From Qipengyuania proteolytica (lineage in GTDB: Bacteria; Pseudomonadota; Alphaproteobacteria; Sphingomonadales; Sphingomonadaceae): a DNA stretch of 64,000 bases. The translations under genes and the position numbers were made by a program. The notes below the pieces were generated by a model. That model searched no databases. It saw only the letters and a list, made by a program, of their open reading frames with translations, and was not told where the DNA came from. Location: positions 558,001 to 622,000 of the forward strand of contig NZ_JAIGNN010000001.1 of the NCBI RefSeq assembly GCF_019711565.1, given 5' to 3'. Of the stretch, positions 44,870 through 54,632 are shown in pieces. Each line of letters begins with the position of its first letter. Position 1 is the stretch's first letter.

Positions 44870-44914
44870 CAGCGAGTCCCTGTTGCGTGCGGGTCCGACA
44901 TCCGTCCGACCCTT

Positions 44915-44997
44915 GCTGCGCCATCCCACGCCCCCTCCATGCCACCCATAGAATACCGTGCCGTGGGTGGCCGGGAGGGGGCGTGGGATGGCACAGC
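44915..44997. repeat. 83-bp palindromic element, copy 1
   Basis: The left arm (44915-44948) and right arm (44964-44997) are inverted complements, 34 bases each, with a few mismatches. An 18-bp perfect section (44921-44938 with 44974-44991) and a 7-bp inner section (CCACCCA/TGGGTGG) are included. The centre, 15 bases (44949-44963), reads TAGAATACCGTGCCG. A second copy at 54291-54373 has the same arms and the reverse complement of this centre. It lies between the acyl-CoA dehydrogenase and CoA-transferase genes. Confidence 0.9.
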
Positions 44998-45017
44998 CGA
45001 GCCGTCAGGCGAGCAGA

Positions 45018-52391: not shown

Positions 52392-53453
52392 TCAGGGCAG
52401 CAGGTGTCCCGCCCGGTCGCGCTTGGTGGCGAGGTAGCGGGCATTGTGCGGATTGTCGGGCAGGCTGTGCGGGACACGTTCGGTGACTGCCACACCTTCC
52501 GCCTCGAGCGCGGCGACCTTGGCCGGATTGTTGGTCATCAGCCGGATGGCGCCCACGCCGAGCAGGTCGAGCATCCGCGCGGCGGTGGGGAAATCGCGCG
52601 CTTCGTCGGGCAGGCCGAGCCGGGTGTTGGCGTCGACCGTGTCGAAACCCTGGTCCTGCAACCGGTAGGCGCGCAGCTTGTTGACGAGGCCGATCCCGCG
52701 CCCTTCCTGCCGCATGTAGAGCAGCACGCCCCAGCCGCCCTTGTCGGCCTCCTCCGCCATGGCGTGCAGCGCCGCGTCGAGCTGCGGCCCGCAATCGCAT
52801 TTGAGGCTGCCGAGGATATCGCCGGTGAGGCATTCGGAATGCAGGCGGACGAGCGGCGGCGTGTCGCTGTCCTGCCGCCCGATGACCAGCGCGACATGTT
52901 CGCGCGTATCATCGGGGCTGCGGAAGGCGACGATGCGTGCGCCTTCGGCTGCAGCGACGGGCAGCTTCGCGCGGGTGGCTATCTGGAGCCGCGAGGCGTC
53001 CGCAAAGGCAGCCACATCGCCCGCCTCGAGCGCGACGGGCTCGCCCGCACCATGCGGGTCGACGATGAAGGCGGGTAGCACGCCGGCCATGCGCGCCAGT
53101 TCGAGCGCGGCCCTGGCCTGCTCCTCCCAGTCGCAATGGAGCGCCTTGAACGGGCCCTTGAGCGGCGCGGCGAGGTCCAGCGCGGGATCGGCAATGGCCA
53201 GCGCATGCGGCAGGTCGAACGGCTCGGCGGCGCGCATCAGGACCGGCTGGCGCGGCCTGGCCGCCTCGAGCTGGTTTGCGAGCTTGAGCGTCGCGGCGCG
53301 GCTGGCGGAGAGCAGCATCGCCTCGCCCGTGATGTCGCCGAATGCGGTCTCGACCGGCTGAAGCAGCGGCGCGCCCGCGATAGCCAGCGGCCAGCCGTGG
53401 CGCAGCGCATCCACCGCCTGCGCCGCGCGGCGGGAGGCCGAGGCTTCGCTCAG
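52392..53453 (-). CDS. ribA: GTP cyclohydrolase II with N-terminal extension, probable CTG start
   Basis: RibA opens the riboflavin pathway by hydrolysing GTP. The C-terminal 200 residues form the GCHII core: zinc ligands in HSECLTGDILGSLKCDCGPQL, then YMRQEGRGIGL and RLMTNNPAK. About 150 residues precede it, without DHBP-synthase motifs, a form I associate with this group. No ATG is available. CTG 53453 has GGAG six bases upstream and overlaps the xth stop by four bases (CTGA), giving 353 residues (SEASASRRAAQAVDALRHG). GTG 53414 lacks a Shine-Dalgarno and starts inside the conserved AAQAVDALRHGWPL. Confidence 0.85.
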   Translation of the reverse strand: MSEASASRRAAQAVDALRHGWPLAIAGAPLLQPVETAFGDITGEAMLLSASRAATLKLANQLEAARPRQPVLMRAAEPFDLPHALAIADPALDLAAPLKGPFKALHCDWEEQARAALELARMAGVLPAFIVDPHGAGEPVALEAGDVAAFADASRLQIATRAKLPVAAAEGARIVAFRSPDDTREHVALVIGRQDSDTPPLVRLHSECLTGDILGSLKCDCGPQLDAALHAMAEEADKGGWGVLLYMRQEGRGIGLVNKLRAYRLQDQGFDTVDANTRLGLPDEARDFPTAARMLDLLGVGAIRLMTNNPAKVAALEAEGVAVTERVPHSLPDNPHNARYLATKRDRAGHLLP

Positions 53454-54241
53454 AGCGTGAACTCCGTCACCAGCGGCACGTGGTCGGAGGGCTTGTCCCA
53501 GTCGCGCGCATCCTCGTGGACGGCGTGGGCGGTGGCCTGTTTTGCGAGGTCGGGGCTGGCCCACATATGGTCCAGCCGGCGCCCGCGATCGTTCGCCTTC
53601 CAGTCCTTCGCACGATAGCTCCACCAGCTGTAATAGCGCTCCGGCGCCTTGATATGCTCGCGCCCGATATCGGCCCAGCCGTGCGCGTCCATGAAGCGTT
53701 GCAGGCTCTCGACCTCGACCGGCGTGTGGCTGACGACCTTCAGCAGCTGCTTGTGGTTCCACACGTCGCTTTCGAGCGGCGCGATGTTGAAATCGCCCAC
53801 GATCAGCGTCGGCCGGTCGACAGTGTCGGCCCAGCGCGTCATCCGCTCGAGGAAGTCGAGCTTCTGGCCGAACTTCACATTGATCTCGCGGTCCGGCTCG
53901 TCGCCTCCGGCAGGGACATAGACGTTTTCGACGATCATGCCCTGGTGATCGGTCAGCTCGACGCCGACGTGGCGCGCCTCGCCATTGTCCTGCCAGTCAT
54001 GCCGCGAGAACTCGCGCAGCGGCGTTTTCGCGACCGTCGCCACGCCGTGATAGCCTTTCTGCCCGTGCACCGCGAAGTGCTCGTAACCGAGCGCGCGGAA
54101 GGCCTCGAACGGGAACTGCTGCTCCTGGCACTTGATCTCCTGCAGGCACAGTACGTCGGGCGCCTGTTCCTTCAGAAAGCGTTCCACGATCGGCATCCGC
54201 AGGCGGACCGAATTGATGTTCCAGGTAGCGATAGAGACCAT
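53450..54241 (-). CDS. xth: Exodeoxyribonuclease III / AP endonuclease
   Basis: Xth cuts DNA at abasic sites and has 3'-5' exonuclease activity in base-excision repair. The 263-residue protein has the family motifs: TWNINSVRLRM at the N-terminus, LCLQEIKCQ with the metal-binding Glu, VYVPAGGDE, VGDFNIAPLE with catalytic Asp and Asn, and the final SDHVPLVTEF with His. ATG 54241 (MVSIATWNINSV) is the standard start. A palindromic repeat element ends 49 bases upstream of it. Its stop overlaps the ribA start. Confidence 0.95.
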   Translation of the reverse strand: MVSIATWNINSVRLRMPIVERFLKEQAPDVLCLQEIKCQEQQFPFEAFRALGYEHFAVHGQKGYHGVATVAKTPLREFSRHDWQDNGEARHVGVELTDHQGMIVENVYVPAGGDEPDREINVKFGQKLDFLERMTRWADTVDRPTLIVGDFNIAPLESDVWNHKQLLKVVSHTPVEVESLQRFMDAHGWADIGREHIKAPERYYSWWSYRAKDWKANDRGRRLDHMWASPDLAKQATAHAVHEDARDWDKPSDHVPLVTEFTL

Positions 54242-54290
54242 GGAAGGGGCTTTAGGTGCGTTGTCCGGCAGCAGCAAGCTGCTGCCTCGC

Positions 54291-54373
54291 GCTGTTCCAT
54301 CCCACGCCCCCTCCCGGCCACCCACGGCACGGTATTCTATGGGTGGCCGGGAGGGGGCGTGGGATGGAACAGC
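54291..54373. repeat. 83-bp palindromic element, copy 2
   Basis: A perfect 34-bp inverted repeat: left arm 54291-54324 (starting GCTGTTCCATCCC), right arm 54340-54373 (ending GGGATGGAACAGC). The 15-base centre is CGGCACGGTATTCTA, the exact reverse complement of the copy 1 centre (44949-44963), so the two are in opposite orientation. It lies 49 bases before the xth start. No target-site duplication is apparent by eye. Confidence 0.92.
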
Positions 54374-54420
54374 AAGGTCAGGACGAAGGTCCTGACCGCG
54401 CCCACAAGATACCCCACAAC

Positions 54421-54457
54421 AAAAAACCCTCGCGCCGGGGGCATTGGCACGAGGGTT
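54421..54457 (-). terminator. Terminator on the minus strand, downstream of lolA
   Basis: AACCCTCGTGCC pairs with GGCGCGAGGGTT (minus strand, 54457 to 54425; one mismatch or wobble), followed by TTTTTT. It is about 175 bases past the lolA stop, so it may end lolA or a separate small transcript. Confidence 0.8.
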
Positions 54458-54632
54458 CCTTGTGAGCGTTCGTCACGCTTGGAACGAGGCGAACCAGGAT
54501 GAGGGGGTCAACAGGGGGGAAACCCGCCTCTCGTCGTCTCGCAAGAAGGAAATTACGCCCGTTGCGCTTGCTCTGCAATGAACAACCGACCGCAAAATGT
54601 CGGAATTATACAACCGACCGGGGACGAGCCGT

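Follow-up and report, generated by a model that had tools for sequence, protein, structure and literature searches.

The 64,000-nt stretch of the Qipengyuania proteolytica genome analyzed here (the window) harbors two long palindromes in opposite orientation, raising the question of what kind of element they are, how the second, inverse copy arose, and how such palindromes are moved and maintained. The core palindrome of copy 1 spans positions 44915..44997 (no strand assigned) and has 34-nt arms that are 91% complementary (31/34) around a polar 15-nt center, TAGAATACCGTGCCG (44949..44963, plus strand). The core of copy 2 (54291..54373, no strand assigned) has 34-nt arms that are 100% complementary, and its 15-nt polar center (54325..54339, minus strand) reads CGGCACGGTATTCTA on the plus strand, the exact reverse complement of the center of copy 1. 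The palindromes, arms and reverse-complemented centers are therefore real and exactly as the first-pass annotation had described them. Both copies fold better than any of 200 dinucleotide shuffles (z-scores of -9.9 for copy 1 and -13.1 for copy 2, the latter computed on 54287-54377; 0 shuffles as good). The size of 83 bp given earlier applies to the core and falls short of the full extent, as the longest inverted repeat of the window pairs 44884-44997 with 54291-54404 (114 nt, 86%) and takes in side hairpins; it exceeds the core because a small hairpin module adjoining each core is also common to both copies. According to Pfam, the genes on either side of copy 1 encode a CoA-transferase and an acyl-CoA dehydrogenase, and copy 2 is flanked by an exonuclease/endonuclease-family gene (here named xthA) and lolA, each pair lying on the minus strand.

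Each window palindrome is the core of a larger element, arranged as side module, core palindrome of about 83 bp, and side module. In a typical element of the genus, an outer box (TTTGTTGSGTGC) is followed by a small hairpin, variable in its stem and almost invariant in its loop, then by TTGC, by the core with its polar 15-nt center, and by a second module. The usual order of the left module is outer box, GTGC, 9-bp stem, 4-nt loop and TTGC, and the right side is an inverted type A module, a type C/D module or a type E module. In copy 1, the left outer box, GAGTCCCTGTTGCGTGCG (44874..44891, plus strand), matches the outer-end consensus of type-A modules and is followed by a type-A small hairpin (44891..44912, plus strand) with the loop ATCC between 9-nt stem halves. 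The right-hand module of this copy, CCGAGCCGTCAGGCGAG (44997..45013, plus strand), was named type E; it is identical in the orthologous copies L029 and L301, is represented by a two-base variant in L320, and recurs as the same string beside a copy at a different locus (L034). In copy 2, the right-hand small hairpin (54376..54397, minus strand) is a type-A module, GGTCAGGAC-GAAG-GTCCTGACC, and the left-hand small hairpin is GGCAGCAGCAAGCTGCTGCC (54267..54286, plus strand). One half of this left-hand hairpin looks like native flank, since it resembles the copy-less allele of genome G024; its stem is altered yet paired in G030.

From 60 genomes of the genus we compiled 91 distinct copies, in which module types A, C/D and E occur in differing combinations (copy 1 and another copy of the same genome, L003, were removed by a filter and stand outside this set). 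A strict type-A anchor is matched on both sides by 32/91 copies, which thus carry their small hairpins as inverted pairs. The loop is ATCC in 97 of the 124 modules of a pairing-selected set. In a set of 107 modules anchored without any pairing requirement, the 52 distinct stems are 81% Watson-Crick at the 8 variable pairs, as compared with a mean of 45% and a maximum of 53% in 500 shuffles. Conservation of the outer box starts sharply 10 nt ahead of GTGC in these 107 modules, indicating that the element has a real end. The center is polar with respect to the modules: 18 copies have a C/D module on the right of the center and 2 have one on the left, with polarity uncertain in 3/91 copies, and in L003, outside that set, the C/D module also lies to the left. 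Centers recovered across the class resemble TAGAATACCGTGCCG in that 62/111 hold GATA/AATAC-like words or their inverse once one metagenome-assembled genome is set aside; the commonest class-wide center string (9/120) comes entirely from one metagenome-assembled genome.

By blastn and folding, the genome of Q. proteolytica carries at least 8 copies that are intact, one that has decayed and one that lacks the core. The core-less copy (L053, G000:C2:592291-592351) is an inverted pair of small hairpins joined by CTTGCGGCAAG, as though the core were missing from the middle. A search for further core-less doublets, by a pattern with CATCCG on both sides, matched 0/60 genomes; this pattern is too strict for counting, since it also misses the known doublet (C2:592293), whose right loop differs.

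The first-pass annotation had proposed a repeat family of this genome and suggested looking for it throughout the genome and its relatives, with only two copies here and none in relatives as the result that would speak against it. That result was not obtained. The copy-2 query matches 34/60 genomes of the genus, including that of Q. proteolytica, with copy numbers that are lower bounds (at most 13 candidates scored per genome), and further copies are scattered across the Alphaproteobacteria. The core pattern is present in 19/385 class-wide genomes (Q. proteolytica included) at 1 to 24 exact-pattern copies each; a reversed control pattern matched 3/385, once each. In a phylum sample, 6/398 genomes match, every one from the same class or closer, and the core was absent from the sampled genomes of other classes. 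Single matches in the class and phylum samples with atypical centers (G365 and G548) may be due to chance. Among the matches listed, named hosts include Sphingomonas, Hephaestia, Novosphingobium, Neoroseomonas, Tistlia, Minwuia, Kiloniellales and Acetobacteraceae, and the core-motif search returned at least 117 loci with at least 120 matches. Three plasmid records also carry the core. One locus, L171 (CP051228.1), is recorded under the flavobacterial name Mesoflavibacter sp.; this name looks doubtful, as the 8-kb stretch around the core has 64% G+C.

Matches were also found on viral contigs (15 stretches on 14 contigs, L187-L201). A reading frame common to the Sphingomonas locus L153 and 9 of the 15 viral stretches matches an HK97-type capsid model, and the annotated phage collection yielded no match to the core, so a phage element was rejected. 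The capsid cluster presumably resembles that of a gene-transfer agent, and such clusters near cores may explain the presence of cores among viral contigs.

By flanking sequence, 63/91 copies sort into 16 groups; the members of a group have both flanks in common and come from different genomes (two of the 16 groups represent the xthA locus, in two gene arrangements). Given that so many copies occupy the same place in different species, we judge the copies to be old. Taken relative to the flanks, the center is found both ways round in 8/16 groups. At the copy 1 locus, the center has one orientation in the Q. proteolytica copy and L029 and the other in L301 and L320, the side-module types being the same, and the centers of L003 and its ortholog L021 are exactly inverse. 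At two further loci, that of L004 (ortholog L042) and that of L007/L290, the side modules too lie on the opposite side, making reversal of the whole element or separate insertion at a hot spot possible there. Because both orientations are found at one locus across species, an inverted center is not evidence for insertion in the opposite orientation.

The same comparison bears on the two window copies. Four relatives (G025, G045, G046 and G051) carry a copy at each of the window loci, 9-10 kb apart. Two of them, G025 and G045, have an inverted center at the copy-1 locus only, so that the two centers are not inverse there. The mirror relation of the window copies is thus not fixed, and an inverse second copy needs no duplication, since two relatives hold both copies without inverse centers. 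The copy-2 locus has empty or decayed alleles in G008, G024 and G044. The gene adjoining xthA also varies by species, being either lolA or another gene (window 53453-54400, loci L202-L251), and elements are found at the xthA junction in both gene arrangements; the repeat may have served as a rearrangement breakpoint at this locus.

The arms of orthologous copies change in concert. Over 90 copy pairs and 30 positions, we counted 224 two-sided changes (188 keeping the pair and 36 not) and 250 one-sided changes, whereas 45 two-sided changes would be expected if the arms were independent, an excess of about fivefold. This count took copies whose left arm ends in the usual CCC phase and applied no pairing filter, unlike an earlier count; as pairs within a group are mutually dependent, no probability is attached to it, and one close pair (L277/L281) contributes 9 one-sided differences resembling an indel shift. 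With rising flank divergence, for which the identities are rough (trimmed alignments), the two-sided share is 0.36, 0.41 and 0.40 and hardly rises. A process with both of the effects seen here is reported from yeast, where template switching between the arms of inverted repeats leads to arm homogenization and spacer inversion, with ten spacer inversions in genes (PMC8604942). As both reported effects are present at the shared loci, we take template switching to be the most likely way in which the copies are maintained and flipped.

Template switching cannot be the whole story, as some exchange between copies also occurs. Side modules differ between copies at shared loci, and of 88 copies classed for outer arm type (21 of these 88 with at least one side unassigned), 6 have different types on the two sides; both observations call for inter-copy exchange. 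Matched arm changes could also arise if one family member replaced another as a whole, so part of them may stem from exchange and not from template switching. Mutation followed by homogenization might, moreover, predict a two-sided share that rises with divergence, which it hardly does, and flips confined to the center do not cover L042 and L007/L290, where the side modules have switched as well.

On balance we favor, with moderate confidence, the reading that the window palindromes belong, as old and non-autonomous members, to a mosaic family of intergenic palindromes whose arms are matched and centers flipped mostly in place. Once placed, a copy would mostly stay put; template switching, or else recombination, between its arms would keep the arms matched and occasionally flip the center, and copies would swap side modules and outer arms. 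Such center flips, and not duplication, would then have put the two window copies in opposite orientation. The original dispersal was probably the work of a trans-acting enzyme that acted on the hairpin and left no target duplication.

The alternative that survives best, although we hold it to be rather improbable, is that the element is a functional site under selection, in which stems are free to vary and loops are recognized; it would be either a hairpin at transcript ends or a DNA or RNA structure to which a host protein binds. Stems that vary with pairing kept around constant loops, and the occupation of the same places in different species, would be expected of such a site. So would a preference for particular gaps: 67 of 82 class-wide cores lie in gaps and 15 inside a crudely predicted gene, and the gaps are tandem in 33 cases, convergent in 21 and divergent in 13. 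Compared with length-controlled gaps, convergent gaps look enriched and divergent gaps depleted on these crude gene calls. This bias fits avoidance of promoters, without proof of a role. Both the patchy presence in the genus (34/60 genomes) and the alleles at the copy-2 locus that are empty or decayed make an essential function less likely, and module differences and center flips at one locus likewise speak against a selected site. Moreover, no T-run lies 3' of the window copies, and Rfam gave no match in the window at the gathering score; over nine loci of this genome it returned 36 hits at E up to 1, 34 of them to microRNA hairpin models and 0 at the gathering score.

Beside copy 2, about 125 nt of the sequence that separates lolA from xthA are conserved (54421-54545, minus strand). 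At the end of this intergenic stretch lie a GC hairpin, whose stem changes are paired, and a T-run; the stretch was recovered by pattern in 29/50 loci scanned (22 distinct sequences). It has no Rfam match at E up to 1 and is a candidate small RNA or shared terminator.

Somewhat less probable still is a MITE of a DDE transposon, in which the outer boxes (GAGTC-TTTGTTGSGTGCG and its inverse) would be terminal inverted repeats used in trans. Type-A ends do carry inverted outer boxes with a sharp boundary, and CTAG is enriched beside the core in other alphaproteobacteria (31 near vs. 3 far flanks, 88 copies). However, other copies terminate in C, D or E modules, and no target-site duplication of 2-9 bp rises above background in the 32 copies with type A on both sides, with boundaries set 8-21 nt outside GTGC. 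Transposases of the DUF4096 (IS5-type) family occur in 18/60 genomes of the genus but not in G005, G009, G025, G032, G041 and G045, all of them rich in the element. Y2_Tnp (IS91-type) occurs in 4/60 genomes (G021, G034, G049 and G056), and only G049 also matches the copy-2 query.

Transposase searches covered Y1_Tnp, DUF4096 and Y2_Tnp, and the genomes searched support neither RAYT, DUF4096 (IS5-type) nor Y2 (IS91-type) enzymes as mobilizers. Inspection by eye of the 25 largest clusters of recurrent protein neighbors revealed no recognizable transposase. In other alphaproteobacteria, AAAAC, CTCTAG and related words are enriched in the sequence flanking the core, and inverted flank similarity around class-wide cores is only partly above chance (20/96 above the 95% null level). 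Judging from this word enrichment and from the larger inverted repeats around some cores, the core may in some copies sit in or between small host palindromes.

The first-pass annotation had attributed the palindromes to a REP/MITE-type family moved by a transposase, for which it suggested a RAYT-type enzyme; the repeat family stands, and the RAYT-type transposase does not. We regard it as very unlikely that these are REP/REPIN-type elements moved by a RAYT (Y1 HUH) transposase, with the present copies as relics or moved from elsewhere, even though multicopy hairpins in inverted pairs without detected target duplication fit such a mechanism. Y1_Tnp is absent from the Q. proteolytica genome and from the class genomes with the four highest copy numbers (24, 18, 10 and 10). 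In a survey of 33 chosen genomes, it was present in 8/25 element-bearing and 0/8 element-free genomes, a difference that makes loss of RAYT elsewhere conceivable, and it was lacking in the other 17/25 element-bearing genomes. The described REP tags are GTAG or CGTC (PMC3733652). The bases ahead of the small hairpin are instead GTGC-like, and neither tag occurs in the 5 bases ahead of the stem in the 8 commonest strings (113/124 pairing-selected modules), in a test that covered the type-A hairpins; 58/182 copy sides had no such hairpin.

Finally, a recent local inverted duplication, which would account for two copies 9 kb apart with inverse centers, is rejected by the orthologous copies and is left with practically no probability, as each window copy has same-locus counterparts in several other species and the side modules of the two differ.

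BIME and REP elements of enterobacteria and pseudomonads are non-coding, multicopy, short intergenic palindromes combined with modules both ways round. The present family resembles them in being a multicopy, non-coding mosaic of short intergenic palindromes, and its repeated palindromic modules in varying order and orientation (91 copies) make it a bacterial interspersed mosaic element in the broad sense. Unlike BIME/REP elements, it has a long core (~83 bp) with a polar center between small hairpins, occurs at 1 to 24 copies per positive class genome (at least 8 in Q. proteolytica), is mostly without RAYT, and shares its core among families of one class. Rhizobial intergenic mosaic elements (RIMEs) are palindromic, intergenic and mosaic elements of about 100 bp in Alphaproteobacteria, and the present family is like them, compared by description, in being palindromic, mosaic and intergenic and in its host class. 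As in REPINs, two small inverted hairpins surround a center and no target duplication was detected, but a long palindrome fills that center, and the Y1 transposase is missing from the Q. proteolytica genome and most element-bearing genomes searched. The CGTC-tagged REPs of Alphaproteobacteria have stems of 8-9 bp and loops of 4-5 nt and are mostly inverted dimers (PMC3733652). The present family agrees with that account in host class, stem and loop sizes and inverted dimers, whereas the type-A module has no CGTC tag, AT stem start or CCA tail. Judged from its sequence organization, the family is a mosaic of intergenic palindromes like BIMEs; it fails both the RAYT and the GTAG/CGTC tag tests. 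Among the matches listed in open-licence PMC literature (palindromic repeats with Alphaproteobacteria, Sphingomonas, Novosphingobium or Erythrobacter; REPIN/RAYT), no description of it was recognized, and two 11-mers of the core retrieved no paper on bacterial repeats, by title, from open-licence full text.

A more far-reaching possibility, which we put forward tentatively, is that these copies belong to a so far undescribed hairpin superfamily of Alphaproteobacteria. A non-RAYT enzyme would recognize the core and its polar center and insert it into small host palindromes, or between them, without duplicating the target; template switching would then keep the palindrome perfect and toggle its polarity, so that the copies would act as slow in-place switches. 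As a widely scattered palindromic element without the transposase expected from REP biology, the family also makes its mobilizer a searchable question. When the two halves of a hairpin change in a matched way, this is usually taken as a sign that selection acts on the structure. In many copies at shared loci, matched arm changes accompany center inversion, which points to a mutational process instead, and the family would offer a many-locus bacterial system for telling such a process from structural selection.
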